Below are positions 10,833-26,929 of a DNA stretch of 64,000 bases, piece after piece. The position numbers were made by a program, and so were the translations under genes. The stretch covers positions 496,001-560,000 of the forward strand of contig NZ_RCCE01000002.1 in assembly GCF_003663885.1 (NCBI RefSeq). The letters are read 5' to 3'. Source of the DNA: Litoreibacter meonggei. GTDB taxonomy: Bacteria > Pseudomonadota > Alphaproteobacteria > Rhodobacterales > Rhodobacteraceae. The notes under the pieces are model-generated. The model did no database searches. It worked only from the letters and a program-made list of their open reading frames with translations, and was not told the DNA's origin. Position 1 is the stretch's first letter, and each line of letters starts with the position of its first letter.

Positions 10833-11942
10833 TCAGTTAACAGCATCGAACAGTTCAGGGCTAAACACTGTATGGCGTGCCCGCCCCTGATCCTTTGATG
10901 TATAGAGCGCACGGTCAGCATCATTCAGCATGCGGTCCGCAGCGGGGGCGCTGTAAAAGCTCGACAATGTCGTCCCGATGCTGGCCGAGATTCGGCAGAG
11001 ATCGCCGTCATATAAGATCGGCTCTTCAAGCCGGGAGATTATCCGCCACGCGATACCCTCCAAAACCGTTAAATCAATGGCGCCGTTAAAGATGAGGACG
11101 AATTCATCCCCGCCAACCCGCGCCACAAGATCGCTTGCGCGGGTCTCGTCTTGCAGCACACCGGCGACGACTTTTAAAACATGGTCCCCCGCCCCGTGCC
11201 CAAATGTGTCGTTGACCTGTTTGAAATGGTCCAAATCCAAATGCATCAGGCCGAACGGTTCCCCCGACGCTTCGAGGTGACGCAGCAAACTGTCCATGCT
11301 GCGCCGGTTCTGAAGCCCGGTAAGCGTATCCGTATAGGCTTGTTGTTCGGCCTCAACCCGCGCACCTTCCAGCCGCGAATTGAGCCGTTTTGACTCCTCT
11401 AAGGCAATTGATTTGGCCTCGATCAGGTAAAGCATGTCGACAGTAGGATCGGCGGGCGCGAAATCTGCGCTGCTCAGGTTATAGCGCTGAACAGCTTCAA
11501 CGACATTGACCCCAAGGGACAGGTTTAGCAACGCACCTTGGGGGGCGTTCATCACGCCCGGCGCTATCGGCCGCAACACCGGCCATGCCTCACCCGTGAC
11601 GCGCCTATCAGGCAGCAAAGGGTGACGCGCGGACAATGGGACGAATAGCCCCTTCATACCCAGCCTATGCCCATAGCGAAACTTGGTCCGAACCAAGCAA
11701 CTTCCATGTTCCAGAAGGTCGCTGAATTCCAGAATATGAAGCGGTCGCTTTATCTCGAAGACTTCCAGCAGCCGTTTTCCGATCAGGGTTTCGTCCGGTC
11801 GCAGCTTGGCCAATGTGGGCCCTGCTGACATGATGTGGCCAGTGGATGAGACGTGCATATGCATCGGCATCAAGGCCCCGAGCGCATCAGGGGCAATCGG
11901 GACATACTGTGCAGGCACCGGATGCACGAAATCACCGCTCAT
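10833..11942 (-). CDS. HNOBA-GGDEF diguanylate cyclase
   Basis: A 369-residue predicted c-di-GMP synthase. Residues ~20-185 resemble the haem-NO-binding-associated (HNOBA) PAS-like domain and end in a helical linker (IEAKSIALEESKRLNSRLEGARVEAEQQAYTD). The GGDEF domain follows, with an intact GGDEF at 277-281 and an RASD product-inhibition site at 268-271, exactly five residues before it, so catalysis and feedback control are both likely. Its start overlaps the end of the H-NOX gene by four bases, so the pair forms one unit in which the H-NOX would control the cyclase. Confidence 0.92.
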   Translation of the reverse strand: MSGDFVHPVPAQYVPIAPDALGALMPMHMHVSSTGHIMSAGPTLAKLRPDETLIGKRLLEVFEIKRPLHILEFSDLLEHGSCLVRTKFRYGHRLGMKGLFVPLSARHPLLPDRRVTGEAWPVLRPIAPGVMNAPQGALLNLSLGVNVVEAVQRYNLSSADFAPADPTVDMLYLIEAKSIALEESKRLNSRLEGARVEAEQQAYTDTLTGLQNRRSMDSLLRHLEASGEPFGLMHLDLDHFKQVNDTFGHGAGDHVLKVVAGVLQDETRASDLVARVGGDEFVLIFNGAIDLTVLEGIAWRIISRLEEPILYDGDLCRISASIGTTLSSFYSAPAADRMLNDADRALYTSKDQGRARHTVFSPELFDAVN

Positions 11943-12541
11943 GTTGCGGTGTCCTCCGTCACCAAGCCGAAGCCACGATCCGCAGCGAATTCCGCCTCGA
12001 ACAACTCCACCATGACACGCTCAATCACCTCAACGCCCAATGCAGAGCGTTCGAGGTCCAGCACGACAAGTGCCCCATAGTCGTCGGCCATCGCCCGCAG
12101 AATGCCCAGAAGCACCGCCCCGAATCCCGGCCGGTCAAACTTCACCAATACGCTGAACGAGGTGCCGGAATGCGCCTCGACTTCCAGTTGGGGGAGACCC
12201 AGATCAGGCAGGGCCAGTTTGACCCGATCATGAAGATCATCAAGCGACAGGAGAAATTCTTCAAATGATGTGCCACCAAAGCGCAGCAACCTGCGCACCG
12301 TCTCCATACGTTTGTGGGTGACCAGATAGGCGCCTACATCCTCCAGCACCTGCGTCGGCGTCTTCTCAAGTTGATCCGAAAGCGCCAGAAGAACATCGTC
12401 TAGATGATCGTCAGGATAGGGTAGCATCGCTTCATATTCATATAGCTGGTGACCGGCCTCCGCGACCACCTTGTCCCAGAGCGCATCCCCATAGATGTCC
12501 TGCGCAAAACACTGCAACGCGCGATGAACCAAGCCGTACAT
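11939..12541 (-). CDS. H-NOX haem NO-binding sensor with altered YxSxR motif
   Basis: A 200-residue haem-nitric oxide/oxygen binding protein. It begins MYGLVHRALQCFAQDIYGDALWDKVV, the canonical H-NOX N terminus, and keeps the proximal haem histidine as H104 in LDDLHDRV and the haem-distorting proline as P117. The haem-propionate YxSxR motif, expected at 133/135/137 from the same offset, reads V133-F135-R137, so only the arginine remains. The C-terminal ~20 residues are an extension. It precedes the GGDEF gene with an ATGA overlap. The 242-base gap upstream to 12784 holds no convincing gene. Haem binding should be tested, given the motif loss. Confidence 0.9.
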   Translation of the reverse strand: MYGLVHRALQCFAQDIYGDALWDKVVAEAGHQLYEYEAMLPYPDDHLDDVLLALSDQLEKTPTQVLEDVGAYLVTHKRMETVRRLLRFGGTSFEEFLLSLDDLHDRVKLALPDLGLPQLEVEAHSGTSFSVLVKFDRPGFGAVLLGILRAMADDYGALVVLDLERSALGVEVIERVMVELFEAEFAADRGFGLVTEDTAT

Positions 12542-12783
12542 GTGATGCCTTTTCTCAACCCTGAAAACACATCTGCCGCAAAACGGTTAAAGAAACGCCA
12601 AGAAAAGGTTTCGGGATATCTAAGGTTGGAGATGTTAGCAAACCTTGGACGCCTGCATAGAGCCCGTTCTAGAAACCTGATGTTCTTGCTGCAGCCGTTG
12701 CACCTAAATGCTGCGTCAACAGAAGCTGCGCCCGCACCAGTCCGCCTTGCTGACTTTGGCTGCCCCTAGCATAGCACCAAACG

Positions 12784-14340
12784 TCAAAAGTCCGTCGGCA
12801 CCCCACCTTCGGATTTCCGGCGGGCCACGAAATCCGCCAGCTCATCGCGGATGGCAATGTCTATAGGCGGGGCCTCGAACTCTGCGATGATGCCCTTATA
12901 CATCTCGTGCGCCCGCTCCGCCGTCCAAACGCCACCATTCAAATCCCACGCCTCGTAATTGGACCAGTCGGAAATCAGCGGCGAGTAGAACGCATCCTCA
13001 TACCGGTCCTGCGTGTGCTGGCAGCCGAAGTAATGCCCGTTCGGGCCAACCTCGCGGATCGCGTCCAGTGCAATGTCGTCAGGCGTCGTAGCGTAGGTGG
13101 CAGGCTCCATATACCGTTGAATTTGCTGGATAACATCGCAATCCATGATGAACTTCTCGGGGCTGGCGATCAGACCGCCCTCCAGCCAGCCCGCCGCGTG
13201 GTAGACGACGTTTGTGCCAGACTGCACGGCGGCCCACAGGGAATTCGACGTCTCCCACATCGCCTGCCCGTCCGGAACGTTCGCGGCGCACACGCCGGAC
13301 GAGCGGATCGGCAGCCCGTAAAACCGCCCCATCTGCCCCGTCATCTGCGTCGCGCGCATGTATTCGGGTGTGCCAAACGCGGGCGCGCCAGTCTTCATAT
13401 CCACGTTCGACGTAAACGTCCCGATGGCACAAGGGGCACCCGGATTAACCACTTGCAGCAGCACAATCGCGGCCAGCCCTTCGGCCAGCGACAACGTCAC
13501 CGCGCCCGACATGGTCACGGGCGCCATGGCCCCCGCCAAGGTAAACGGCGTCACGATCACCGGCTGGTTGCGCCGCGCATGGATCATAGCGCCTTCCAGC
13601 ATCGGGAAATCGTGTTTCAATGGCGAGACCGAGTTGATGTTCGTATACATATGCGGCTTGGCATCGAACTCCTCGCGCGTCATGCCGCCCGCGATGCGCA
13701 CCATCTCCATCACGTCCTCCACCCGCTCCTTACCCAGCGAGTAGGCATGCACGACCTTGTCCGTCAGGGTCAGCTTTTCATACAGGCAGTCGAGGTGACG
13801 TTCGCGCGCGTGGATGTCGATAGGCTCCACCGGATAGCCGCCCGCGAAATGGATGCAGTTGAAGAACTGGGTGAGCTTGATGAACTCCTTATACCCCTCG
13901 AAATCGCCGGTGCGCTTGCCGCGCTTCAGATCCCACATATTGGGTGGCGAGGAGACGTTGCCGAACAGGATATGCTTGCCCCCCATCGGGATAGCACGGT
14001 CGGGATTGCGCGGGGTGATGGTAAACTCCGCTGGCGCATGGTCGAGCATTTCCATCACGAAATCCTCGCCCATTCGCACGTTGGTGCCATCGACCTTGCA
14101 GCCCGCGCCTTTCAGAATCTTGCACGCGTCAGGGTTCAGAAATTCAATGCCGATCTCGGACAGAATGCGCATCGCACCTTTGTGGATGGCCTGAACGCCG
14201 TCTTCGTCCAAAGGCTCCGTCGGCTTGTCGGTGTTGACCGGAATGCGCCACGGCATCTGCTCCGGCAGCTTGGAGGTCGTGCGCCTGGCGTTCCCCGCAC
14301 GGCCACCGCCGCGCTTACGTTTGATGGGTTCATCTGCCAT
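12784..14340 (-). CDS. MttB-family (trimethylamine methyltransferase-like) protein without pyrrolysine
   Basis: A 518-residue member of the MttB superfamily (COG5598). After a basic, disordered head (KRKRGGGRAGNARR) it carries the TIM-barrel blocks ILSEIGIEFLNPDACKILKGAGCKVDG, HILFGNVSSPPNMWD, PFTLAGAMAPVTMSGAVTLSLAEGLA and GTFTSNVDMKTGAPAFGTPE. Pyl-dependent MttB has an in-frame UAG; this frame is uninterrupted, so it belongs to the non-Pyl branch whose known members demethylate quaternary amines such as glycine betaine. No corrinoid carrier or activase gene is nearby. I start at 14340 (GGAGG 10 bases upstream), dropping 14 residues from the longest frame. The substrate is unknown. Confidence 0.88.
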   Translation of the reverse strand: MADEPIKRKRGGGRAGNARRTTSKLPEQMPWRIPVNTDKPTEPLDEDGVQAIHKGAMRILSEIGIEFLNPDACKILKGAGCKVDGTNVRMGEDFVMEMLDHAPAEFTITPRNPDRAIPMGGKHILFGNVSSPPNMWDLKRGKRTGDFEGYKEFIKLTQFFNCIHFAGGYPVEPIDIHARERHLDCLYEKLTLTDKVVHAYSLGKERVEDVMEMVRIAGGMTREEFDAKPHMYTNINSVSPLKHDFPMLEGAMIHARRNQPVIVTPFTLAGAMAPVTMSGAVTLSLAEGLAAIVLLQVVNPGAPCAIGTFTSNVDMKTGAPAFGTPEYMRATQMTGQMGRFYGLPIRSSGVCAANVPDGQAMWETSNSLWAAVQSGTNVVYHAAGWLEGGLIASPEKFIMDCDVIQQIQRYMEPATYATTPDDIALDAIREVGPNGHYFGCQHTQDRYEDAFYSPLISDWSNYEAWDLNGGVWTAERAHEMYKGIIAEFEAPPIDIAIRDELADFVARRKSEGGVPTDF

Positions 14341-14440
14341 GTCGCTGTGACCTCCGGTGTTAGCTGCCCACCCAGCTTGCACCGCGCCCCAAGGGCAGGT
14401 TTGGCGTTTACCGACGGGTTACGTCGCTTTTGGCGCAAGG

Positions 14441-15139
14441 CTACCGCGCGGCCAACCAGTGCGGGATGTCCGCGATGCTGTTCAAAACCACATCCGCATG
14501 CGGCTCCAGATCGGCGCGTCTCGCGGGGCCGGTCAGCACGCCCACGCAAATCATCCCCGCATTACGGCCCGCATGAAGGTCGTGCGTGCTGTCGCCCACC
14601 ATCGCCACCTCGGACGGGGCAAATCCGCAATGGTCCGAGAACGCCAGAAGCATCTCCGGCGCGGGTTTTCCACCAAAGCCGGAATCGAAGCCCAATATGC
14701 GCGCGAACCGCGTCTCAACCCCCAACGTGCGCATATGTGCATGGGCGGAGCTTTCGGCGTCGTTCGTCGCAATCCCCAACGGCAGCCCCATGGCATCGAA
14801 CCGGTCAAACAGTTCGGGCAGCGCACATGGGGTCACCAATTCGGCCTGCGCCGCTTTCTCGTTGCCATATTCCAGCAAGGCCTGCCGCTCCCAATGCGGA
14901 ACGAAGGGCAGCAACAGATCAATCACCACATCCGCAGTATCGGCAATCACCGGACTGTCGGGGTGGAAGGTTCTGGATGCCGCATTGAACCCGGCCGCAT
15001 CCGCCATGCGCGCGCTAAGTCCGGCGTCGCCCTGCGCCAGATCGTCAAAGAACCCGGCGGCCCATTGGCCCCACGTCGCGTCGAAATCCAGCAAGGTGCC
15101 GTCCTTGTCAAACAGCAAGCCTTTGATCTGCCCTGTCAT
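14441..15139 (-). CDS. HAD-family phosphatase, phosphoglycolate-phosphatase-like
   Basis: A 232-residue HAD hydrolase. Motif I is DKDGT (11-15, nucleophile D11, acid D13), motif II is T125 in IATND, motif III is K158 in GGKPAPEM, and motif IV is D183/D187 in GDSTHD. The helical cap sits at residues ~20-90. It resembles Gph-type phosphatases, but the substrate cannot be assigned. The frame extends far upstream; the ATG at 15139 with AGAGGAAC before it gives a normal N terminus. It is divergent from the RdhA fusion and lies downstream of no obvious partner. Confidence 0.88.
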   Translation of the reverse strand: MTGQIKGLLFDKDGTLLDFDATWGQWAAGFFDDLAQGDAGLSARMADAAGFNAASRTFHPDSPVIADTADVVIDLLLPFVPHWERQALLEYGNEKAAQAELVTPCALPELFDRFDAMGLPLGIATNDAESSAHAHMRTLGVETRFARILGFDSGFGGKPAPEMLLAFSDHCGFAPSEVAMVGDSTHDLHAGRNAGMICVGVLTGPARRADLEPHADVVLNSIADIPHWLAAR

Positions 15140-15178
15140 ATCCCGCCCGTTCCTCTCTTGACCCGCTATGAATGCTCC

Positions 15179-15253
15179 ATGACAGTGACGAGTATGAGCA
15201 ATGAGAACAAGCGCTATGCGCCGCGTGCCGGCAGAACCTTGAAGCAGCCCTGA
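15179..15253 (+). CDS. Possible 24-codon leader ORF of the rdhA fusion
   Basis: A short frame (starts MTVTSMSNENKRYAPRAGRT, ends LKQP) stops with TGA immediately followed by the ATG of the dehalogenase fusion. The dehalogenase ATG itself has no clear Shine-Dalgarno, so translation could be coupled to this leader. It might equally be chance coding in a 114-base gap. No family is recognised. Confidence 0.3.
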   Translation: MTVTSMSNENKRYAPRAGRTLKQP

Positions 15254-18200
15254 ATGACAAAACTCTTCTCCTACCGGAACCGCCCCGTCCATTTGGGACC
15301 TTACCCTTTGGAAAAATTGGAGCGGGTAGACAGCGCTGCATTGGATCATGTGCCCGCGATGGCGCATGTCAGCTTTCGACGGCCTGAAGACCCTTTGAGC
15401 ATCGTCAACGCGATGCAGGAGTATCAGGCGATGCTCGACGCCACCCGCGACGGGTTGGTGAAAAAAGAAATCGCCGAAATCCCGTCAGACCTGACGGAGC
15501 GGGCCAATCACCTCAAGGCCTTCGGCTACTACTGCGATGCGTCGATGGTCGGCACCTGCGAGATACCGCGCGAGGCATGGCTGGACACCCCACTGGTCAA
15601 CCCAGATGTAGACCGGCTGGCAGACAAACTGCGGACCTTGCAACCCAAAACCTTGGCCGCTGGCATCGACGTCATCATGGCTGGCCTGCGCGAAAGCATG
15701 CGCGCCCCGCCGCAAGCCTGCGACCACCACACTCACGCTCTGGTGTTCCTTTACGACATGCCCCGCGATCCAGAGCCGGACGAGGTCGGGTGCGACTGGA
15801 TCACCGACGCCCAAGACCACCGCACCTGCCTGCGCGGGATGGAGACGGCGGTGACCCTCGCCTCCTACATCCGCACTTTGGGCTTCGATGCGCGGGCGCA
15901 TTCGATGGCAGCGAGCGACGTGCATCTTGGCAAGCTTGCGGTGGCGTCGGGCCTGAACCATGCGGATGGCGCAAACCCGTTTCTGGGCAACCGCTACGGA
16001 TTGGCCGTGGTGACCACGACTTTGGCGATGACGGCAGACCGTCCGTTGGCCCCAAATGCCAAGCCCGGGCTGTCTTGGGCCATCGGCCTTTCCGGCCATA
16101 CGAAAAGCCGACGCTTTGCCGACGCTTTTCAGACACGCAAATTCCGCGACGGCCCGCACCCGTTCGAGACCCTCAAACGGGTCGAAAATCCGACCACCTA
16201 TATCGATAAACCCAACGTCGCCCGCGTCCCGAAGCGCGCCAACCTGTTCGCGCGCGGGCTGTTCGGCGACATGGGAAAAACGGTGCAAGAGGCCACGAAA
16301 AACGGCAACTATGTCCGCAAATCGGCGGCGGCATTTGCCTTCCGCCCGTCGCTTGGCGCGTTCGTTTTGCTACAAGACGGGGAGGCTTCCGAGGTCCACG
16401 AGTCTACACAAGACCCCGACCGCAACGCCGCCAATATCAAGGCCGCGCTCTACTGGCTGGGCGTCGATGCGGCAGGCCTAAGCGCCTGCCCTGATTGGGT
16501 TTATTACAGTCACGACGCAGCAGGCCAGCCGATCATGCCCTACCATTCCAACGCGATTTCCATGATCATCGACCAAGGCCACGAGACCATGGAAGGTGCC
16601 TCCGGCGACGACTGGATCGCCTGCGCGCAGTCGATGCGCGCCTACCTGCGGTTCTCGCTTCTGGGCGGTGTGCTGGCCGAGCACCTGCGCCGCCTCGGCT
16701 ACACCGCCCGCGTCCATTCTGTAATGGACGACGAGGTCCTGCACCCGCCCCTGCTGCTGCTCTCCGGTCTGGGCGAGGTTTCCCGCATCGGCGAAGTGAT
16801 CCTCAACCCCTTCCTCGGCCCCCGTCTGAAGTCCGGTGTCGTCACCACCAACATGCCGCTAACCCACGATAAACCAATAGATTTTGGACTTCAAAAATTC
16901 TGCGAAGCCTGCAACAAATGCGCCCGCGAATGCCCCTCCGGTGCTATCACCGCTGGCCCGAAACTGATGTTCAACGGCTACGAGATCTGGAAATCCGATA
17001 GCCAGAAATGCACCACCTACCGCGTTGCCCAAAAGAACGGCGCGATGTGCGGGCGCTGCATGAAAACCTGCCCGTGGAACCTTGAAGGCTTGTTCGCCGA
17101 AGCCCCCTTCCGCAAGCTGGCCATGACCCTGCCGCAAGCTGCCAAGGCCTTGGCAAAGCTGGATGATTTGGCGGGGCAAGGCGAAATCAACCCCGTCAAA
17201 AAGTGGTGGTGGGATCTGGAAATGGTCGACGACGGGGCCTACCGCCCCTCGGCCCATCCGGTGAACGCACGCGGGCTGCAAAAGGGTTTGGACCTGCGCT
17301 ACGAGGACCAGACGCTGGCCGTCTACCCCGCCCCCCTGGCCCCGCCGCCCTATGCCTATCCCTACCCGATGGACCGCGAGGCGGGCATCGCCGCCTACAA
17401 GGCGATGATCCCCGCACCCGAGCATAAAGCCCGCCGCGCCAAAGGGTTAGCGCCTGAGCATATCTACACCGCCGACCAGCAAGACAGCCCCGTCATGGGT
17501 GCGGTGATCTCGAAGGTTGAGCACATGACCGACACGATCACGAAATACGAGTTCGCAATGCCCGACGGCTCCGACATGCCCCCCGTGGCGGCTGGCGCGC
17601 ATATCGACGTGGTCGTCGCCCCCGAATTCCTGCGACAATATTCGCTGTCCGGTGACCCCGCCGACCGCTCCCGCTACCAGATCGCCGTGCTGCGCGAGGA
17701 TCACGGGCGCGGCGGTTCGCGCCTGATGCACCGCATTTTCGAGGAAGGACGGCGGGTGCATATCTCCAAGCCGATCAACCACTTTCCGCTGCATGAGGAT
17801 GCCAGTTTCACCTACCTCATGGGCGGCGGCATCGGTGTCACGCCGATGATCGCGATGGCCCATAGACTACACGCCATCGGCGCGGATTTTGCGCTGCACT
17901 ACTCCTGCTCGACGCGCAGCGGGGCGGGGTTCTTGGACGATCTGGCAAAGGTGCCATGGGCTGACAAGGTGCACCTGCATTTCTCCAACGAAGGCTCCCG
18001 CTGCGACCTCGCCAACACGCTGAAACACCGCACCGGCGCGCATGTCTACACCTGCGGGCCGGAGGTCTACATGGCCGCCGTCATGGACGCAGCGCAGGCG
18101 AACGGTTTCCCAGAAGAGGCACAGCATCTGGAGTTTTTCTCGGTCCCCGAGCAGCCCGACTACGTGAACCACGCCTTCACCCTGCGGCTTGCCAGCACCA

Positions 18201-18436
18201 GCATGGACATCGCCGTGAAGGCCGACGAAGCCGCGACCGACGCCCTTCTGCGAGCGGGAATTCATGTGGATGTGAAATGCTCGGACGGGCTGTGCGGGGT
18301 GTGCAAATGCGGCGTGGTCGCGGGCGATGTGGAACACCGCGACTTCGTGCTGTCAAACGCGGATCGCGCAAAGGCGATGATCCTGTGCCAGTCCCGCGCA
18401 GCTGAAAAGGATGGTCTGGTGGAGATCGACTTATGA
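15254..18436 (+). CDS. Reductive dehalogenase (RdhA) - FMN/NAD/2Fe-2S reductase fusion
   Basis: A 1060-residue, probably cytoplasmic and self-sufficient corrinoid dehalogenase. Residues ~1-620 are the RdhA part: a degenerate first module, a second B12-binding module, and two 4Fe-4S sites, C550-C553-C556-C560 and C586-C599-C602-C606 (CX12CX2CX3C). Residues ~740-1060 resemble phthalate dioxygenase reductase: flavin motif RQYSLSG (794-800), NAD motif GGGIGVTPM (857-865), and a C-terminal plant-type 2Fe-2S ferredoxin with C1009-C1014-C1017-C1045. There is no Tat signal and no rdhB anchor gene, unlike respiratory RdhA. The layout matches aerobic catabolic enzymes such as BhbA and NpRdhA, which reduce halophenols with NADPH. 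An epoxyqueuosine-reductase-like role is less likely given the size and fusion. The next gene overlaps by four bases. The substrate is unknown. Confidence 0.88.
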   Translation: MTKLFSYRNRPVHLGPYPLEKLERVDSAALDHVPAMAHVSFRRPEDPLSIVNAMQEYQAMLDATRDGLVKKEIAEIPSDLTERANHLKAFGYYCDASMVGTCEIPREAWLDTPLVNPDVDRLADKLRTLQPKTLAAGIDVIMAGLRESMRAPPQACDHHTHALVFLYDMPRDPEPDEVGCDWITDAQDHRTCLRGMETAVTLASYIRTLGFDARAHSMAASDVHLGKLAVASGLNHADGANPFLGNRYGLAVVTTTLAMTADRPLAPNAKPGLSWAIGLSGHTKSRRFADAFQTRKFRDGPHPFETLKRVENPTTYIDKPNVARVPKRANLFARGLFGDMGKTVQEATKNGNYVRKSAAAFAFRPSLGAFVLLQDGEASEVHESTQDPDRNAANIKAALYWLGVDAAGLSACPDWVYYSHDAAGQPIMPYHSNAISMIIDQGHETMEGASGDDWIACAQSMRAYLRFSLLGGVLAEHLRRLGYTARVHSVMDDEVLHPPLLLLSGLGEVSRIGEVILNPFLGPRLKSGVVTTNMPLTHDKPIDFGLQKFCEACNKCARECPSGAITAGPKLMFNGYEIWKSDSQKCTTYRVAQKNGAMCGRCMKTCPWNLEGLFAEAPFRKLAMTLPQAAKALAKLDDLAGQGEINPVKKWWWDLEMVDDGAYRPSAHPVNARGLQKGLDLRYEDQTLAVYPAPLAPPPYAYPYPMDREAGIAAYKAMIPAPEHKARRAKGLAPEHIYTADQQDSPVMGAVISKVEHMTDTITKYEFAMPDGSDMPPVAAGAHIDVVVAPEFLRQYSLSGDPADRSRYQIAVLREDHGRGGSRLMHRIFEEGRRVHISKPINHFPLHEDASFTYLMGGGIGVTPMIAMAHRLHAIGADFALHYSCSTRSGAGFLDDLAKVPWADKVHLHFSNEGSRCDLANTLKHRTGAHVYTCGPEVYMAAVMDAAQANGFPEEAQHLEFFSVPEQPDYVNHAFTLRLASTSMDIAVKADEAATDALLRAGIHVDVKCSDGLCGVCKCGVVAGDVEHRDFVLSNADRAKAMILCQSRAAEKDGLVEIDL

Positions 18437-18978
18437 CCGTACTGACCGGCGAGGTTCACATTGCGCGACCCGTGGCGGAGGTCTACGACCTCTACACCGA
18501 TGCGCGTCTGACGGCAGAGCATAGTTCGGGCCGCACCGAAGTGTCCTTTACAAATGTGGTCGAGGATGGCCCCGGCACGCAGGCGGTCTGGATGTTCATC
18601 TACCCCGAGTTGAAAACCGAGATGGTTGAGACCGTGGTCGAGGTCGACCGCCCGCACCGCATCACCAGCCACCTGCAAATCACCCGCGTTCTGCCACTGG
18701 CCCCGCATGAAGTGACGCCGGGCGTCATGCCCGCGTTGGCCTATAACATGCGTGACGATTACAGCCCGCTCTTCGGAAAGCTCCCCGCTGAGGGTGTGCA
18801 GGAAACGAGCTTCACCCCTGACGGCGACGGCACCGTTTTGCGGGTCACGACACAGATAGCCCTTGGCGGATGGTCGCGCATATCAGGCTGGTTCATGTCG
18901 CGCTCTAAACGCTCGCCTTTGCAACGTGATCTGGAGGCATTCCGCGACCGCCTTGAGGCTATGCGCGGGACAGGCTGA
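18433..18978 (+). CDS. SRPBCC (START-like) domain protein
   Basis: A 181-residue protein with a SRPBCC beginning (TGEVHIARPVAEVYDLYTDARLTAEHSSG) and the alternating beta-strand pattern of the helix-grip fold (HRITSHLQITRVLPLAPHEVTPG, VLRVTTQIALGGWSRISGW). Such proteins bind small hydrophobic ligands. Its ATG overlaps the dehalogenase stop (ATGA), so the two are co-translated, suggesting a role in binding the halogenated substrate or product. It converges on znuB with a 20-base overlap at the ends. The function is inferred from fold and context only. Confidence 0.7.
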   Translation: MTVLTGEVHIARPVAEVYDLYTDARLTAEHSSGRTEVSFTNVVEDGPGTQAVWMFIYPELKTEMVETVVEVDRPHRITSHLQITRVLPLAPHEVTPGVMPALAYNMRDDYSPLFGKLPAEGVQETSFTPDGDGTVLRVTTQIALGGWSRISGWFMSRSKRSPLQRDLEAFRDRLEAMRGTG

Positions 18979-19747
18979 CCACGCTGCTCAGTCCGAACAA
19001 CACGGCAGCGACGCAGACCATTGTAGGTCCGGCGGGCGTGTCAAAGCGGTAGGCCAACTGCAAGCCCCCCAACGCCGATACCCCACCTATCACAGCCGCG
19101 ATAGCGGCCATACGCTCAGGCGTCTGCGCCAGCGGACGGGCGGCAGCGGCGGGGATGACCAACAATGCTGCGATCAGCAGGACACCGACGACCTTGATTG
19201 CCACGGCGACGACCACGGCCAGTGCGATGGTCAGGATCAGCTGCTCGCGCTTCGGGTCGATGCCGCTGGCCTGCGCCAGATCGGGGCTAACGGTGGACAG
19301 CAGCAGTTGCTGCCAGCGCCAGCCAACAAGCGCCAGAACCAGCAAGGCTCCACCCCAGATCACCGCCAGATCGACACGGCCCACGGCCAGAATATCGCCG
19401 AACAGGTAGGCCATCAGGTCGATGCGCACCCCGTCAAGGAACGACACCGCCACCAGCCCGAAGGCAATGGCGGAATGGGCCATGACGCCCAGCAACGTGT
19501 CCATCGCGTAGCCACGCCCTGACAGGGTGGACACTGAGGTTGCCATCACCAAGGCCACGACAAGGACACCTGCGAAAACGGACATGTTGAAGCTGAGCGC
19601 CAGCGCCACACCAAGGATCGAGGCATGCGCGGTGGCGTCGCCGAAATAGGCCATGCGCCTCCAGACAACGAAGCAGCCCAAGGGGGCGGCGGCCAACGCA
19701 ACGCCAAGCCCAGCGAGGGCGGCGCGAACGAGAAAACTGTCGAGCAT
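18959..19747 (-). CDS. znuB: Zinc ABC transporter permease
   Basis: A 262-residue inner-membrane permease of the manganese/zinc (ABC-3) family, with ~8 hydrophobic segments, starting DSFLVRAALAGLGVALAAAPLGCFVVWRRMAYFGDATAHASILGVAL, where RRMAYFGDATAHAS is the diagnostic first-loop signature. It forms the channel of ZnuABC. It shares one base with the znuC stop and is the last gene of the zur-znuC-znuB unit. Its 3' end overlaps the SRPBCC gene on the other strand by 20 bases. Confidence 0.95.
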   Translation of the reverse strand: MLDSFLVRAALAGLGVALAAAPLGCFVVWRRMAYFGDATAHASILGVALALSFNMSVFAGVLVVALVMATSVSTLSGRGYAMDTLLGVMAHSAIAFGLVAVSFLDGVRIDLMAYLFGDILAVGRVDLAVIWGGALLVLALVGWRWQQLLLSTVSPDLAQASGIDPKREQLILTIALAVVVAVAIKVVGVLLIAALLVIPAAAARPLAQTPERMAAIAAVIGGVSALGGLQLAYRFDTPAGPTMVCVAAVLFGLSSVVSLSRA

Positions 19748-20499
19748 TATTCTGCGGCCTCATGGGAGTGATCGTGATCGCACTCGTGGCCATGCACATG
19801 GTCATGATCGTGGCGATACAGCGCCAAGGCCCCGCCCGTGCCAGAACCAAACAAGGCGCGGTATTCGGGGGCGGAAGCGACGACGTCGGGCTTGCCCTCG
19901 CAGCACACATGGCCGTTGAGGCAGATCACACGGTCGGAGGCGCTCATCACAACGTGCAGCTCGTGGCTGATCATCAGGACGGCGCAGTTCAGCTCGTCCC
20001 GCACCTTCTCGATATGGTGGTAGAACGCGGCGGAGCCGGGTTGATCCAGCCCCTGTGTCGCCTCGTCCAACAGCAAAAGTTGTGGCTTATGCAGCAACGC
20101 ACGGGCAAGCAAAACACGCTGGAATTGGCCCCCGGATAAATTTGACATTTGCCGCGAACCCAAATCGGGCACACCGGCTCGCCTCAACGCCTCAGATGCG
20201 TCGGTGTCGGAGATCTTTACGGGCAGACTCAGAAATCGCTTAACTGTCATAGGCAGGGTCGGGTCGATATGCAGTTTTTGCGGCACGTACCCTATCCGCA
20301 GACCCATTGCGCGGCTAATTTGGCCCGATGCAGGCTTCAAAGCGCCAATCAACGCGCGCAGTAACGAAGATTTACCAGATCCATTCGGGCCGACAATGGT
20401 AACAATTTCGCCTGGAGCTATGCTGATATTCACGTCCTCCAGCACCTTCTGCGCCCCATATTTGAGGTTCACGTTGTTGAAATCGACCAGCGCATTCAT
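19747..20499 (-). CDS. znuC: Zinc ABC transporter ATP-binding protein
   Basis: A 250-residue ATPase with Walker A GPNGSGKSS, signature LSGGQFQRVLLARALL, Walker B LLLLDEAT and the H-loop SHELHVV. The C terminus is strikingly His/Asp-rich (HDHDHVHGHECDHDHSHEAAE), a metal-buffering tail often found on Zn transporters. It overlaps zur by four bases and znuB by one. It powers zinc import with ZnuB and ZnuA. Confidence 0.95.
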   Translation of the reverse strand: MNALVDFNNVNLKYGAQKVLEDVNISIAPGEIVTIVGPNGSGKSSLLRALIGALKPASGQISRAMGLRIGYVPQKLHIDPTLPMTVKRFLSLPVKISDTDASEALRRAGVPDLGSRQMSNLSGGQFQRVLLARALLHKPQLLLLDEATQGLDQPGSAAFYHHIEKVRDELNCAVLMISHELHVVMSASDRVICLNGHVCCEGKPDVVASAPEYRALFGSGTGGALALYRHDHDHVHGHECDHDHSHEAAE

Positions 20500-20975
20500 T
20501 CGGATTTACTCCGGCAGTTCGGGCAAACGCCCTCTGCCTCGAGAACGGTGCGCTCGATGGTGAACCCTGTTTCCTGAGCAGCCTTGCCAAGTCGCCCACC
20601 TGCCGCTGCCGTCACTGTTTCGGCAACAGCGTCGCAGCTGCGGCAAATCAGGAATGCTGGCGCATGCGTATCGCCGGGATGGGTACAGGCGATAAAGGCG
20701 TTCAGCCGCTCGATCTTGTGGGCGAAGCCGTGCTTCACCAGAAAGTCCAAAGCGCGGTAAACCACGGGGGGCTGTGAGCCTAGCCCCTCCTCGCGCAAGG
20801 TATCCAAAATTTCATATGCCCCAATGGCGCGGTGTCCCTGGAGCAGAATCTCCAGCACACGCTTGCGCACAGGGGTGAATTGCAACCCTTCCTCGGCGCA
20901 GGTTTGCACCACGGCAGCGACGCCGCCAGAAATGCAATTTGAATGATCGTGATGCTTGAAGCCGAGCGGGTTCAT
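20496..20975 (-). CDS. zur: Fur-family zinc uptake regulator
   Basis: A 159-residue repressor. The winged helix covers QFTPVRKRVLEILLQGHRAIGAYEILDTLREEGLGSQPPVVYRALDFL, and two CxxC pairs (CRSC and CPNC near the C terminus) form the structural zinc site. An early His cluster, KHHDHSN, is at residues 7-13. The ATG at 20975 has AGGAG 7 bases upstream and is preferred over the longer frame. Its place as first gene before znuCB, divergent from znuA, identifies it as Zur rather than Fur. A palindrome in the gap is its likely operator. Confidence 0.93.
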   Translation of the reverse strand: MNPLGFKHHDHSNCISGGVAAVVQTCAEEGLQFTPVRKRVLEILLQGHRAIGAYEILDTLREEGLGSQPPVVYRALDFLVKHGFAHKIERLNAFIACTHPGDTHAPAFLICRSCDAVAETVTAAAGGRLGKAAQETGFTIERTVLEAEGVCPNCRSKSE

Positions 20976-21005
20976 GGGAGGCTCCTGAAACTTTAGGGTT
21001 GATAC

Positions 21006-21044
21006 GTTATGATATAACACTTATCAGAGAGCAATATGTTATAC
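21006..21044. promoter_or_regulatory. Candidate Zur box region between zur and znuA
   Basis: GTTAT-GAT-ATAAC at 21006-21018 is a perfect palindrome close to the alphaproteobacterial Zur core (TGTTATA, then ATAACA). A second, weaker TGTTATACA at 21037-21045 lies nearer znuA. Both are in the 86-base divergent gap, well placed to repress both directions when zinc is plentiful. Confidence 0.75.
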
Positions 21045-21061
21045 AATCACATAGGTGAAAT

Positions 21062-21982
21062 ATGCTGCGCCCCTTCCTGCTATTGTCCGTGCTTTCCGCC
21101 TCGCCCGCCCTTGCGGAGGTCCCACGTGTCGTGACCGACATCACCCCTGTCCACTCACTGGTCGCGCAGGTGATGGGCGATCTGGGAGAGCCGGAGGTTT
21201 TGGTCACCGCCAACGCCTCTCCACACAGCTTCGCGCTGCGCCCTTCGCAGGCAGGAGCGCTGGAACAGGCGCAGGCTGTGTTCTGGGTGGGAGAGAGCCT
21301 GACCCCGTGGCTGGAGCCGATGCTGGACCGCCTGTCAGCCGATGCCGTGCAGGTTGAACTGCTGCACCTGCCAGAGACGCAAACCCTAGGGTTTCGGGAC
21401 GCGGACGGGTTCGAGGCACATGACCACGACGACGATCACGATGGTCACGACGACCACGGGCATGACGACCATGGCAATGTCGACCCGCACGCATGGCTGA
21501 ATCCCGACAACGCGGTGGTGTGGCTGGACGCGATTGCGGCGGAGCTGTCGACGCTCGATCCGGATAACGCCGCGACCTATGCGGCCAATGCACAAGCCGC
21601 GAAAGATGGGCTGGCCGCGACGGTCGCGCAGATCGAAGCCACACTCGCCCCTGCACAAGGCAAGGCATTCGTCGTGTTCCATGACGCCTACCATTATTTC
21701 GAGGCCCGCTTCGGGATAGAGGCCGTTGCGGCAATCTCGCTCAGCGACGCCGCCACCCCCGGCCCTGCACGGGTAGAGCGCATCCAACAGACGGTGCGCG
21801 AGAACGGCGTGTCCTGTGCGTTCTCGGAGCCTCAGTTCTCGGATGGCTTGGTGGCCACGGTGCTAGACGGCACCGACGCGCGGGTCGCCGTGCTGGACCC
21901 GCTGGGCGCCGCATTGCCTGAAGGGCCGGAACTCTACAACGATTTGCTGCGCAACATGGCGGAGACCATCGCGGGGTGCTAA
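21062..21982 (+). CDS. znuA: Periplasmic zinc-binding protein ZnuA
   Basis: A 306-residue solute-binding protein. Residues 1-18 are a Sec signal (LRPFLLLSVLSASPALA). H55 in ANASPHSFALRPSQ and H143 in DPHAWLNPDNA are conserved zinc ligands, and FVVFHDAYHYFEARFG supplies a third. A His/Asp-rich loop (119-138), typical of zinc rather than manganese binders, precedes the second ligand. AGGTGA lies just before the ATG. It is divergent from zur. Confidence 0.96.
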   Translation: MLRPFLLLSVLSASPALAEVPRVVTDITPVHSLVAQVMGDLGEPEVLVTANASPHSFALRPSQAGALEQAQAVFWVGESLTPWLEPMLDRLSADAVQVELLHLPETQTLGFRDADGFEAHDHDDDHDGHDDHGHDDHGNVDPHAWLNPDNAVVWLDAIAAELSTLDPDNAATYAANAQAAKDGLAATVAQIEATLAPAQGKAFVVFHDAYHYFEARFGIEAVAAISLSDAATPGPARVERIQQTVRENGVSCAFSEPQFSDGLVATVLDGTDARVAVLDPLGAALPEGPELYNDLLRNMAETIAGC

Positions 21983-22924: not shown

Positions 22925-23006
22925 TCTATCACAAGAATACAAATAAATAATTGGAATATATCATATGACTTCGCCTACCTTTCCCTAAATTCCATAGGTG
23001 AGACAC

Positions 23007-25091
23007 ATGAAAACTTCTTCTGTTCGGCTGGGTGTGGATATCGGCGGCACGTTCACCGACGTGGTGCTGGAGGTGGACGGCGCGTCGTTCTCAACCAAGG
23101 TGCTGACAACCTACATCGCACCGGAGAACGCCATCATCGACGGGATGCAGCAGGTCTGCACCAAGGCGGGCATTACGCCTGCGGATATCGGGCAGATCAT
23201 CCACGGGACGACCCTCGCCACCAACGCCCTGATCGAGCGGCGCGGGGCGAAGACCGCGCTGATCACCACCGAAGGTTTCCGCGACGTGATCGAGATGCGC
23301 ACGGAATCGCGGTTCGAGCAATATGACCTGAACCTCAACATTCCCGAGCCACTGCTGCCCCGCCAATGCCGCTACACCGTGCCGGGGCGTATTGATGCCA
23401 CGGGGGCGGAACTGATGCCGCTGACCGAGGCGGATATCGCGCCGGTGGTCGAGGCCATCGCGGAGGCCGGATATGACAGCGTCGCCATCGGGTTGATCCA
23501 TTCGTATCTCAATGACAGCCACGAGAAGCTGGTGCGCGATGTGCTGGCGAAGCGCTTGCCGGACGTGATGATCTCGCTGTCGACCGAAGTCAGCCCCCAG
23601 ATGCGCGAATACGAGCGGTTCAACACCGTTGTAGCGAACGCCTATATCAAGCCGCTGATGAAGTCGTATCTGGGTCGACTGGAAGGCCGCCTGCGCGACG
23701 AGGGCGTGGGTTGCAACATCTTTCTGATGCACTCCGGCGGCGGGATTATCTCGCTGGAGAACGCGGCGGAGTTCCCTGTGCGTCTGGTCGAATCCGGCCC
23801 TGCCGGTGGCGCGGTCTTCGCCGCCAACATCGCCGCGCGCTATGGGTTGGACAAGGTGCTGTCCTTCGACATGGGCGGCACCACGGCCAAGATTTGCCTG
23901 ATCAAGGATCAGACGCCGAAGACCTCCCGCGTGTTCGAAGTGGCGCGGACGTACCGCTTCAAGAAGGGCTCCGGCATGCCCATTTCGATCCCTGTGATCG
24001 ACATGGTAGAAATCGGTGCAGGCGGCGGCTCGCTGGCCCATGTTGATGCGATGCGCCAGATTCGCGTCGGGCCGGAAAGCGCGGGGTCCGAGCCGGGGCC
24101 GGCCTGCTACGGGCGCGGCGGCGACAAACCCGCCGTGACGGATGCGGACCTGGTGCTGGGCAAGCTGGACCCTGACAACTTCGCGGGCGGCTCGATCAAG
24201 CTGGAAACCGCCGCGTCGGAGACCGCGTTGCGTGCCGTTCTGGGCGATATGCTGGACATGGACGCCGCAACCTCCGCCTTTGGCTTGGCCGAAGTAGTGG
24301 ACGAAAACATGGCCAACGCGGCACGGGTTCATGCGGTGGAAAACGGCGAGGATTTGAGCGAATACACCATGATCGCCTTCGGCGGCGCAGCCCCGCTGCA
24401 TGCGGGCCGCTTGTGCGAAAAGCTGGGGGTGGAGCGCCTGCTGGTGCCACCGGGCGCGGGCGTCGGTTCCGCCATCGGCTTCCTGCGCGCGCCTTTCAGC
24501 TTCGAGGCCAACCGTTCCGTCTATATGAAGCTGTCCGACTTTGACGCGGACAAGATCAAGGCGTTGCTTGGTGATTTGAAGGCCGAGGCAACGGGTTTTG
24601 TGCGCAACTGCGACGCGGACAGCGATATCCTGTCGGAGTTCAAGGTCTACATGCGCTACACAGGGCAAGGCTGGGAAATCCCGATCACCCTGACCGAAGC
24701 GCAGGCGATGACCCCAAATGCCGCCACTTTCGAGGCGCGGTTTGTCGAGGATTATACCAAGCTGTTTGGCCGCGCAGTCACGGGTATGGATATCGAAATC
24801 ACCGTCTGGTCGGTGAATGCGACAACCCCACCCGAAAAGGTCACGGAGATCGACGCCGCCAAGCCCAGCGGGGACGCTCCGATCCACGGCTCCCGCTCGC
24901 TATTCGATCCGGCCACAGCGGAGTTCGCGGAAGCCTCTGTCGTGTTGCGTGACGATATGATTGAGGGCGCAGAGGTCACAGGCCCTGCCGCGATCACCGA
25001 GGACGAGACGACAATCATCGTTCCATCGTCCCGCAAAGCCATCCGTCAGCCGGACGGCTGCATCGACATCACCACCAAGAAGGGGGCCTGA
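23007..25091 (+). CDS. hyuA: HyuA: hydantoinase/oxoprolinase family subunit A
   Basis: A 694-residue subunit of the ATP-dependent hydantoinase/5-oxoprolinase/acetone-carboxylase superfamily. The N terminus has the ASKHA phosphate-binding signature RLGVDIGGTFTDVVLE; HGTTLATNALIERRGAKTALITTEGFRDV and SFDMGGTTAKICLI are the other actin-like blocks. Members phosphorylate the carbonyl of a substrate to drive hydrolysis or carboxylation. The ATG at 23007 with AGGTGAG upstream is chosen over the GTG at 22998. hyuB follows after five bases. The specific substrate cannot be read from sequence. Confidence 0.93.
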   Translation: MKTSSVRLGVDIGGTFTDVVLEVDGASFSTKVLTTYIAPENAIIDGMQQVCTKAGITPADIGQIIHGTTLATNALIERRGAKTALITTEGFRDVIEMRTESRFEQYDLNLNIPEPLLPRQCRYTVPGRIDATGAELMPLTEADIAPVVEAIAEAGYDSVAIGLIHSYLNDSHEKLVRDVLAKRLPDVMISLSTEVSPQMREYERFNTVVANAYIKPLMKSYLGRLEGRLRDEGVGCNIFLMHSGGGIISLENAAEFPVRLVESGPAGGAVFAANIAARYGLDKVLSFDMGGTTAKICLIKDQTPKTSRVFEVARTYRFKKGSGMPISIPVIDMVEIGAGGGSLAHVDAMRQIRVGPESAGSEPGPACYGRGGDKPAVTDADLVLGKLDPDNFAGGSIKLETAASETALRAVLGDMLDMDAATSAFGLAEVVDENMANAARVHAVENGEDLSEYTMIAFGGAAPLHAGRLCEKLGVERLLVPPGAGVGSAIGFLRAPFSFEANRSVYMKLSDFDADKIKALLGDLKAEATGFVRNCDADSDILSEFKVYMRYTGQGWEIPITLTEAQAMTPNAATFEARFVEDYTKLFGRAVTGMDIEITVWSVNATTPPEKVTEIDAAKPSGDAPIHGSRSLFDPATAEFAEASVVLRDDMIEGAEVTGPAAITEDETTIIVPSSRKAIRQPDGCIDITTKKGA

Positions 25092-25096
25092 GTCAC

Positions 25097-26806
25097 ATGG
25101 CACAGTCACAGTCCAACGTCGCCTATCAGGTCATGTGGAACCGCCTTATCTCGGTCGTCGAAGAGCAGGCGCAAGCCCTAGTGCGCACGGCGTTCTCGAC
25201 CTCCGTGCGCGAAGCGGGCGATTTGTCTGCGGGGGTCTACGACACCCATGGCCGGATGCTGGCGCAGGCGGTCACCGGCACGCCGGGGCATGTGAACGCC
25301 ATGGCCGACGCGGTGGCGCATTTCATCCGTCGCATCGGGCGGCAGAACATCTTTGAAGGCGACGTCTACCTGACCAACGACCCGTGGGAAGGCACCGGCC
25401 ACCTGCACGACATCACCATGGTGACACCGTCTTTTTACAAAGGCGTTCTGGTCGGCTTCTTTGCCTGCACCGCGCATATCGTGGACATTGGCGGGCGCGG
25501 TTTCGGGGCTGATGCGGCCAGCGTTTATGAAGAAGGGCTGTACATCCCCATCATGAAATTCGCCGAGCGTGGCGACGTGGACGACACCTTAGTGCGCATC
25601 GTGCGCGGCAATGTGCGCGAGCCGGACCAGCTGATCGGTGACATGTACGCGCTGGCGACGTGTAACGAAATTGGCCATCGCCGCCTGATCGAAATGATGG
25701 ACGAGTTCGGGCTGGACGATCTGGACGGCATCGCCGCGTTCATCTTGGACAACTCCCGCCGCGCCACGTTGGAGCGCATCGCCGCCCTGCCCCGCACCAG
25801 CGCCGAGGGAGAGATGACGGTGGACGGTTTCGCGACGCCGATTACCTTGAAGGTCAAGCTGACCATTGAGGAAGACCGGATCGTGTCGGACTTCACTGGC
25901 ACCTCGGGCGTCGACAAGAAGGGCATCAACTGCCCGCTGGTCTACGCAAAGGCCTATGCCTGCTACGCGTTGAAATGCGCGATTGCTCCGGAGATCCCGA
26001 ACAACGCGGCCTCACTCGCCCCGTTCGAGATCGAAGCGCCGGTGAATACCATCGTCAACGCAGTACACCCTGCCCCCGTGGCCCTGCGCCATATCGTCGG
26101 GCATTTTGTGCCGGACACCGTCTATGACGCTTTGGACAAAATCCTGCCCGGTGTTGTGCCTGCCGAAGGTGCAGGCTGTCTGTGCAACTTCCAAGTTTCC
26201 TTGCGTCCGCGCACCGACGCGCCTGCACCACCGGACGCTGTGCGCTCCGAGGTGCTGACGTTCAACTCCGGCGGCTCCGGCGCGCGTCCCGAGCACGACG
26301 GGCTGAATGCCACGGCGTTCCCGTCTGGCGTTATGACCATGCCGATTGAGGCCACGGAACACGCGGGTCCGGTGATCATCTGGCGCAAGGAATTGCGCCC
26401 CGATTCAGGTGGCGCGGGCAAGCAGCGCGGCGGGTTGGGGCAATACATGGAGGTCGGCGCACGCGAGGGGCATGAGTTCGACTTTCAGGCGATGTTCGAC
26501 CGTGTGGACCACCCTGCCCGCGGACGTCGTGGCGGGAAGGCGGGCGCGTGCACCACGATCGCGCAGGACGATGGCAGCGAAATGTTCGGTAAGGGCAAGC
26601 AATTCGTGCCACACGGCCGGAAGGTGATGCTCGCCCTGCCCGGCGGTGCGGGCTATGGCGATCCGGCGGAACGGTCGCTTGATCTGGTCAAACGCGATCT
26701 TCTGCGAGGATACATCGCCTTTGAAGCGGCCAAACGTGACTATGTGTTAAGCGATGCGGACATCGCGGATGTGCAAGAAAAGATGCGCAAGGGCGACACG
26801 GTATAG
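25097..26806 (+). CDS. hyuB: HyuB: hydantoinase/oxoprolinase family subunit B
   Basis: A 569-residue partner of HyuA. Diagnostic blocks are VVEEQAQALVRTAFSTSVREAGDLSAGVYD, GTPGHVNAMADAV, VYLTNDPWEGTGHLHDITMVTP and SGGSGARPEHDGLNATAFPSGVM. The length and order fit N-methylhydantoinase B and acetophenone-carboxylase-type subunits alike. Acetone carboxylase has a third, zinc-containing gamma subunit, which is not seen here. The 123-base gap after it holds no gene, then the BKACE gene starts. Confidence 0.93.
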   Translation: MAQSQSNVAYQVMWNRLISVVEEQAQALVRTAFSTSVREAGDLSAGVYDTHGRMLAQAVTGTPGHVNAMADAVAHFIRRIGRQNIFEGDVYLTNDPWEGTGHLHDITMVTPSFYKGVLVGFFACTAHIVDIGGRGFGADAASVYEEGLYIPIMKFAERGDVDDTLVRIVRGNVREPDQLIGDMYALATCNEIGHRRLIEMMDEFGLDDLDGIAAFILDNSRRATLERIAALPRTSAEGEMTVDGFATPITLKVKLTIEEDRIVSDFTGTSGVDKKGINCPLVYAKAYACYALKCAIAPEIPNNAASLAPFEIEAPVNTIVNAVHPAPVALRHIVGHFVPDTVYDALDKILPGVVPAEGAGCLCNFQVSLRPRTDAPAPPDAVRSEVLTFNSGGSGARPEHDGLNATAFPSGVMTMPIEATEHAGPVIIWRKELRPDSGGAGKQRGGLGQYMEVGAREGHEFDFQAMFDRVDHPARGRRGGKAGACTTIAQDDGSEMFGKGKQFVPHGRKVMLALPGGAGYGDPAERSLDLVKRDLLRGYIAFEAAKRDYVLSDADIADVQEKMRKGDTV

Positions 26807-26929
26807 GCGACCGTTTGGAGGATCGCCGCGTGACGTGAATTGCATCACGAGATGCCCTCCCCTATCGTTTCTTCAATCGGCCAAGCCGAGTGCAAAGCCC
26901 CGCTGTTCGGCACCTAGAGGAACACCACA

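Follow-up and report, generated by a model that had tools for sequence, protein, structure and literature searches.

A reductase-fused reductive dehalogenase gene at a recurrent chromosomal position in Litoreibacter meonggei and other Rhodobacteraceae

The RdhA chain and its domains

The window analysed here, a 64,000-nucleotide stretch of the Litoreibacter meonggei genome (contig NZ_RCCE01000002.1, positions 496,001 to 560,000), contains a gene for a reductive dehalogenase, RdhA. Genes for a HAD-family hydrolase and an MttB-superfamily methyltransferase lie divergently upstream, and a small SRPBCC gene follows directly (Table 1). From N- to C-terminus, the chain is composed of a vestigial RdhA cobalamin region, the active RdhA region, two 4Fe-4S sites and a module of the phthalate dioxygenase reductase (PDOR) type, with flavin mononucleotide (FMN), nicotinamide adenine dinucleotide (NAD) and 2Fe-2S parts.

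Table 1. Coordinates of the features at the RdhA locus, in order of position in the window
Feature	Position	Strand	Basis
MttB-superfamily methyltransferase without a pyrrolysine codon	12784..14382	-	PF06253 2.1e-218; PDB 4yyc, 9yce, 2qne; part of syntenic block
HAD-family hydrolase, phosphatase-like	14441..15139	-	PF00702 1.4e-21; best NCBIfam models are phosphoglycolate phosphatases, below cut-offs; part of syntenic block
HAD/RdhA divergent intergenic region	15140..15253	.	no sigma-70-like site inside; MarR gene of many relatives absent here
RdhA	15254..18436	+	TIGR02486 over cut-off; NpRdhA E=2.8e-165; BhbA 49.3% identity over 100% of query; best Foldseek match NpRdhA
C457, equivalent to NpRdhA A419, pocket of the second (non-ligating) halogen	16622..16624	+	pocket role from PMC7565698
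Y464, equivalent to NpRdhA Y426, predicted proton donor of the catalytic dyad	16643..16645	+	114/114 rows; role from PMC7565698
K526, equivalent to NpRdhA K488, predicted dyad partner	16829..16831	+	114/114 rows; role from PMC7565698
First 4Fe-4S site, C550/553/556/560	16901..16933	+	sequence; C556 and C560 in 114/114 rows; all four invariant in 38-row alignment
Second 4Fe-4S site, C586/599/602/606	17009..17071	+	sequence; invariant in 38-row alignment
R590, equivalent to NpRdhA R552, predicted to bind the phenol hydroxyl	17021..17023	+	114/114 rows; role from PMC7565698
C-terminal reductase module, residues 743-1053	17480..18412	+	RQYSLSG (FMN), GGGIGVTPM (NAD), plant-type 2Fe-2S; phmmer 2pia/6kbh/6laa, PF00111, Foldseek
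SRPBCC/Polyketide_cyc2-like protein, 181 residues	18433..18978	+	PF10604 2.6e-10; lineage-specific neighbour

Membership in the reductive dehalogenase family is evident from several comparisons. The NCBIfam model for reductive dehalogenases, TIGR02486, scored 193.5 bits against a cut-off of 160.35, and a phmmer search of the PDB matched NpRdhA (4ras) over residues 3-105 and 156-735. The vestigial N-terminal cobalamin domain is placed by residues 3-105 and those from 156 onwards, which align to the N-terminal half of NpRdhA. Residues 743-1053 matched the FMN/NAD/2Fe-2S reductases 6kbh and 6laa, the reductase parts of self-sufficient P450s, as well as phthalate dioxygenase reductase itself (2pia, E=4e-51). 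NCBIfam reductase models also matched the last third of the chain, each below its own cut-off, and the Pfam domains above cut-off were Fer2, Fer4_7 and Fer4_16. The original prediction, made from the letters of the window, had described a single open frame of 1060 residues, both sets of 4Fe-4S cysteines, the flavin and NAD motifs and a C-terminal 2Fe-2S cluster. The open reading frame (ORF) list, the translation and the reductase matches bear all of these out, with the 2Fe-2S cysteines at 1009/1014/1017/1045. Both RdhA iron-sulfur motifs, defined as CXXCXXCXXXCP and CXXCXXXCP (PMC6299228), are present, at C550-P561 and C599-P607, respectively.

All of the best 80 of 253 relatives, a set retained from a contig scan in which the clade of the window protein, described below, is over-represented, align to 1009 or more of the 1060 residues and are 65-94% identical to the window protein. 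Ratios of nonsynonymous to synonymous substitution (dN/dS) against five Litoreibacter relatives are 0.066-0.083 overall and 0.025-0.048 in residues 301-740, showing purifying selection. Given the near-full-length matches in all 80 loci together with the low dN/dS, this is not a chance ORF. It is the single match to the RdhA chain in the source genome.

Respiratory RdhA proteins are exported by the twin-arginine translocation (Tat) system, are membrane-associated and have no reductase domain (PMC10463259). A hydropathy scan found no hydrophobic stretch in the window chain, and the arginine pair at residues 42-43 is not followed by a signal peptide. Of the ORFs of 55-140 residues whose starts fall within 12700-21100, a single one (19762-20139) includes a hydrophobic segment; since it lies antisense to an ABC ATPase gene, no RdhB-like anchor was seen. 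The respiratory combination of Tat signal and RdhB anchor is thus not present for the window protein, in line with the earlier expectation of neither a Tat signal nor a membrane-anchor gene.

An AlphaFold2 model was built from a 38-row alignment of the window protein and 37 relatives at 65-85% identity. It reached a mean predicted local distance difference test score (pLDDT) of 70.6 and a predicted template modelling score (pTM) of 0.64. In a Foldseek search with this model, fourteen NpRdhA chains ranked first (TMt 0.73), followed by P450-reductase fusions and phthalate dioxygenase reductase. The predicted fold agrees with the sequence assignment.

Active site, lineages and proposed reaction

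The active site was compared in an alignment of 114 rows, consisting of the window protein, proteins from 112 RdhA loci and NpRdhA. NpRdhA residues F291, S422, M423, Y426, K488 and R552, equivalent to F332, S460, M461, Y464, K526 and R590 of the window protein, are identical in 114/114 rows. The roles of Y426, K488, R552 and S422 are those given for NpRdhA (PMC7565698).

The window RdhA is very probably an RdhA-PDOR fusion that works in the cytosol as a catabolic reductive dehalogenase, drawing its electrons from NAD(P)H and acting on ortho-bromo or ortho-iodo phenols. This keeps the core of the original prediction, a self-sufficient, reductase-fused catabolic RdhA in a marine bacterium; the host is an alphaproteobacterium, and the nearest relatives are from Litoreibacter. 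Cofactors, mechanism, halogen range and cytosolic place would be those of the characterised relatives. NAD(P)H would reduce the FMN, and by way of the C-terminal 2Fe-2S cluster and then the two 4Fe-4S clusters the electrons would reach cobalamin in its base-off form. The substrate, an ortho-bromo or ortho-iodo phenol, may bind with its halogen on the cobalt, the phenol oxygen presumably held by R590, K526 and S460, and the Y464-K526 pair would then protonate the carbon. By analogy, removal of bromine or iodine from phenols is its most likely activity. The related JtRdhA debrominates and deiodinates ortho-halophenols, and the chlorinated compounds tested were not turned over and were inhibitory (PMC10463259); bromide or iodide is therefore the first expected halide.

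The source genome contains the B12 synthesis gene cobI, and homogentisate dioxygenase and the beta subunit of protocatechuate 3,4-dioxygenase scored over cut-off. No 4-hydroxybenzoate 3-hydroxylase (PobA) over cut-off was found in the genome, the best match reaching 31 bits against 538.7, so that catabolism through 4-hydroxybenzoate is not favoured in this strain and the freed phenol is probably channelled elsewhere than through PobA.

Several points weigh against assigning this function to the window protein. PF13486, the Pfam family named in the original prediction, was not recovered: a Pfam scan of the chain gave no match to it at E<=0.01. For base-off cobalamin, the model superposes on NpRdhA, but pLDDT falls below 50 at residues 493-523 and 546-612, which form much of the iron-sulfur core; the cobalamin pocket is therefore placed by homology and not by the model. 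No halophenol-catabolic genes adjoin the window RdhA, unlike the situation at BhbA. We know of no activity for any member of the clade to which the window protein belongs, and the characterised BhbA and NpRdhA fall outside that clade in the tree described below, in which JtRdhA was not among the rows. Lastly, the Roseobacter debrominase Ros_A3X954 is reported to be oxygen-sensitive (PMC13101508), and oxygen tolerance is accordingly not to be assumed for the window RdhA.

An alternative reading is a dehalogenase-like B12/Fe-S enzyme that reduces something other than a carbon-halogen bond, as QueG reduces epoxyqueuosine. A weak QueG match (TIGR00276, 23.9 of 200 bits), the lack of a known activity in the clade and a conserved chromosomal slot, which could mean a core function, speak for such an enzyme. 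We consider it unlikely, as the six NpRdhA residues that bind and protonate halophenols are kept in every row, and as BhbA and JtRdhA, characterised with the same layout, are dehalogenases (PMC10463259).

A quick tree of 114 rows (LG+G4, with support from the Shimodaira-Hasegawa approximate likelihood ratio test, SH-aLRT, alone) placed the window RdhA in a clade of 83 rows (SH-aLRT 100), here termed the window clade. A second Roseobacter clade of 23 rows (SH-aLRT 100), drawn mostly from 16 loci hand-picked out of a 248-genome survey, includes proteins of Ruegeria sp. TM1040 (L131), Roseobacter sp. MED193 (L081) and Jannaschia sp. M317 (L133). Outside both clades fall BhbA, together with Nitratireductor sp. 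OM-1 (L129, L130), and Aminobacter (L132). The tree has long branches at L128, at NpRdhA and at L124, which falls within the second clade; rows L126, L127, L128, L078 and L071 have odd composition, and three genomes are represented twice (L008/L083, L009/L084 and L011/L082). Several organism names in the window clade (L002, L003, L012, L032, L047 and L052), read as names, hint at ascidian or sponge sources.

Among the 248 surveyed Rhodobacteraceae genomes, from 247 genera, 126 have a match at E<=1e-50, many of them reductases alone. A full-length match, covering at least 1056 of the 1060 residues, occurs in 96 of the 248, and 13 of these 96 are at least 70% identical to the window protein by hand count. 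Class-wide, 30/385 genomes match at E<=1e-110, nine with full-length proteins and 21 with matching parts within residues 153-758. Partial copies with in-frame stops or split frames appeared in the family survey (G193:C12:38798-40096, G096:C17:15563-16784 and G099:C4:333239-336423) and look like decaying genes or assembly errors.

The two clades differ at the position of NpRdhA A419, a residue belonging to the pocket of the second, non-ligating bromine (PMC7565698). This column is Cys in 80/83 window-clade rows and Val in 23/23 second-clade rows, with Val in Aminobacter (L132) and Ser in BhbA, and it is one of 7 columns in which the two clades carry different residues, each fixed to 95% or more in its own clade. 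An A419M variant of NpRdhA, designed to favour mono-halogenated substrates, had some success (PMC7565698). The sequence difference predicts different substrate preferences between the two clades. However, the Cys/Val split is probably one evolutionary change, and the pocket difference is therefore a lead rather than proof of a substrate difference.

The chromosomal slot and its neighbours

Most members of the window clade occupy a common chromosomal slot, with the order MttB-HAD-[MarR]-RdhA-DUF3572-PleD. Seventy-three of the 83 rows lie in this block, defined by HAD or MttB on the upstream side, or by DUF3572 or PleD on the downstream side; 8/83, from Leisingera and one related metagenome-assembled genome, have MarR upstream alone, and 2/83, which are one genome counted twice, have no slot neighbour. 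The block was found in 0/23 second-clade rows, where a few contigs end within 2 kb. In the window, znu genes replace the downstream DUF3572-PleD part, and the MarR gene is absent from the slot, its best relatives elsewhere in the genome being 26-36% identical. For the HAD gene, whose ORF was listed as reaching 15367, a start at 15139 (MTGQIKGLLFDKDGT) is more likely, and this leaves the divergent genes 114 bases apart. No literature on the slot itself was apparent from titles and abstract openings.

Distances between RdhA proteins at slot loci track those of their neighbours. Pairwise distances of RdhA correlate with those of HAD (r 0.73, n=69), PleD (0.69, n=50) and MttB (0.64, n=46), each exceeding all 999 permutations. 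For the 31 loci with both MttB and PleD, the coefficients are 0.81 for RdhA-PleD, 0.82 for RdhA-MttB and 0.84 for MttB-PleD. We read these correlations as inheritance at one fixed position, with occasional losses; label permutation by itself does not separate descent from repeated exchange at the same place. With RdhA-free loci picked by MttB similarity, the presence or absence of RdhA takes 4 changes to explain on the tree of MttB, 6 on that of HAD and 5 on that of PleD.

The block also exists without RdhA. Twenty RdhA-free loci of 10-19 kb each were chosen, non-randomly, from the best MttB matches, 19 of them from genomes off the RdhA match list and one from a genome (G171) with RdhA elsewhere. 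HAD is adjacent to MttB in all 20; DUF3572 is present in 18 and MarR in 6, and the stretches contain no RdhA. The G171 genome (L108 and L109), a congener, carries the MttB-HAD-MarR-DUF3572-PleD block without RdhA; its own RdhA, some 105 kb distant on that contig, belongs to the other clade. A MarR-type regulator adjoins RdhA in, for example, L031, L093 and L107, and is found in RdhA-free blocks too, where it may have been left behind after RdhA loss.

The original prediction regarded the SRPBCC, MttB and HAD genes as a new dehalogenase setting. A rival reading joins RdhA with MttB and HAD in one new multi-gene pathway, with steps such as demethylation of a quaternary-ammonium halotyrosine and phosphate hydrolysis, and with SRPBCC as carrier. 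MttB enzymes are also corrinoid-dependent, and a tblastn survey of the 112 RdhA loci found HAD divergently upstream in 68 and MttB in 45. The same survey found MarR in 47, DUF3572 in 56, PleD in 49 and SRPBCC in 4, so that DUF3572 and PleD, with no evident catabolic role, are about as frequent as HAD and MttB. All 20 chosen loci pair MttB with HAD in the absence of RdhA, and neither gene occupies these positions in any second-clade row, a few of whose contigs end within 2 kb. A functional MttB-HAD-RdhA operon was rejected on the RdhA-free loci; these loci, and the presence of SRPBCC beside RdhA in few lineages, leave the new setting unsupported, and the multi-gene pathway is improbable. Two narrower assignments of the neighbours were also rejected. 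By the NCBIfam models, the HAD protein is not a type II haloacid dehalogenase (TIGR01428, 32.3 bits against a cut-off of 125.4), and the MttB protein is not a pyrrolysine-containing trimethylamine methyltransferase (TIGR02369, 262 against 525 bits), its 532-codon frame being uninterrupted.

The start of SRPBCC and the stop of RdhA share four bases (ATGA). The same gene, with the same overlap, is present in other Litoreibacter loci (L002, L003 and L004; 76, 75 and 91% identical, respectively). Distant relatives lie near RdhA in L025 (downstream, four-base overlap), L032 (about 220 bases downstream), L044 (about 1.3 kb downstream) and L079 (about 30 bases upstream). Pfam backs those of L032, L044 and L079; that of L025 was recognised by our custom profile alone, with no Pfam match at E<=1. 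The genes overlapping the RdhA stop in L065 and L070 have no convincing Pfam domain, the former matching the SRPBCC profile at E=0.019 and the latter being unlisted. In the genome survey, which scored up to 13 candidates per genome and may miss some, the profile matched in 13/248 genomes. The window's gene alone adjoins RdhA among the 17 places listed, and SRPBCC as a conserved partner of RdhA fails as a general rule. Because the profile was seeded from RdhA-adjacent genes, the absence of other matches within 9 kb is a weak control. The pairing is recurrent but sporadic. No literature pairing a reductive dehalogenase with SRPBCC, or with Litoreibacter, was found in a search that left most subscription journals outside.

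Other features of the region were noted. On the minus strand, 10833-12541 holds an H-NOX (haem-NO-binding) gene followed by one for a GGDEF protein with a heme-NO-binding-associated domain (Pfam). In 22 of the best 80 loci an H-NOX gene cluster is found beyond MttB or HAD on the upstream side of RdhA, and many RdhA-free blocks have one as well. Genes for hydantoinase/oxoprolinase A and B subunits and a beta-keto acid cleavage enzyme (22998-27766, plus strand) form a separate downstream catabolic cluster. A promoter and terminator scan of 15000-19100 gave 1 and 3 sites, compared with 0.9 and 3.8 in shuffled sequence. Rfam at gathering scores found one tRNA and no riboswitch in the whole window.

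The usual picture of reductive dehalogenation is of an anaerobic respiratory process or a recent response to pollution. Fused RdhA proteins of full length in more than a third of the surveyed genomes, with one lineage apparently inherited at a fixed place, suggest instead an old trait of common marine bacteria. That the window gene was recently acquired for pollutant degradation, like bhbA on pBHB, is very improbable. Fused relatives do occur on plasmids, with 8/9 matching plasmid records spanning most of the query and identities of 66% at most, but most window-clade rows share one block, in which RdhA distances track the neighbours about as closely as these track one another. The gene appears to have long resided on the chromosome in part of the Rhodobacteraceae, and natural marine bromo- and iodophenols are therefore likelier substrates than pollutants. 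The natural marine halogenated aromatics originally proposed as targets are thus favoured, refined to bromo and iodo compounds by the halogen range of JtRdhA.

A more specific scenario is offered tentatively, and we regard it as somewhat less probable than its opposite. The Rhodobacteraceae may hold two separate self-sufficient RdhA lineages, of which that of the window would be kept by descent at one slot and, with Cys rather than Val in the pocket, might act on a different natural halogenated phenol, such as a mono-halogenated or halotyrosine-derived compound of marine animals or algae. In some strains it would do so with a co-translated SRPBCC ligand-binding protein. Because of the Cys/Val difference, two proteins and a single residue exchange would suffice to put the substrate question to a direct test.

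Comparison with characterised dehalogenases

The respiratory enzyme PceA (4UQU) is a weaker phmmer match, restricted to the corrinoid/Fe-S core (E=1.9e-27, residues 437-643). Homologues of bhbA are described as widespread in the Roseobacter clade, and Ros_A3X954 of Roseobacter sp. MED193 is a catabolic reductive dehalogenase with 2,6-dibromophenol as substrate (PMC13101508). It was considered as a tested orthologue and rejected. Its first Fe-S motif, printed as CDICTKCADACP at position 283, occurs in 0/113 extracted RdhA proteins, and the MED193 protein of L081 carries CESCNKCARECP at 557. Since neither motif nor position fits, Ros_A3X954 is a protein other than that of L081, and it seems to be of a short, unfused type.

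NpRdhA, from Nitratireductor pacificus (PDB 4RAS, 6ZXU, 6ZXX and 6ZY1), is 46.0% identical to the window protein over aligned pairs, shares the six active-site residues and is the best structural match to the model. It differs in having Ala at position 419 and no fused reductase (PMC10463259). The related layouts originally suggested, those of BhbA and NpRdhA, thus hold for BhbA as a full-length fusion and not for NpRdhA; JtRdhA, also close, had not been named.

BhbA, from Comamonas sp. 7D-2, matches the whole of the window query and is 50.0% identical over aligned pairs in the 114-row alignment. The annotated record used here carries WP_015585978, the accession given for BhbA in PMC10463259. 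In contrast to the window gene, bhbA is borne on plasmid pBHB and adjoins protocatechuate-cleavage genes, and its product has Ser at the second-halogen pocket and lies outside the slot clade.

JtRdhA, from Jhaorihella thermophila (WP_104007082), resembles the window protein by description. It likewise has a vestigial duplicated cobalamin domain, two 4Fe-4S sites, a fused PDOR and no Tat signal, the same catalytic residues are reported, and its host is marine; the enzyme is NADPH-dependent and works with and without oxygen (PMC10463259). The same paper recognises four RdhA subfamilies, of which the RdhA-PDOR kind is one, and an insert common to these fusions. As this layout has already been characterised in BhbA and JtRdhA, the enzyme type is not new; what the present analysis adds is the lineage at the slot and its difference in the pocket.

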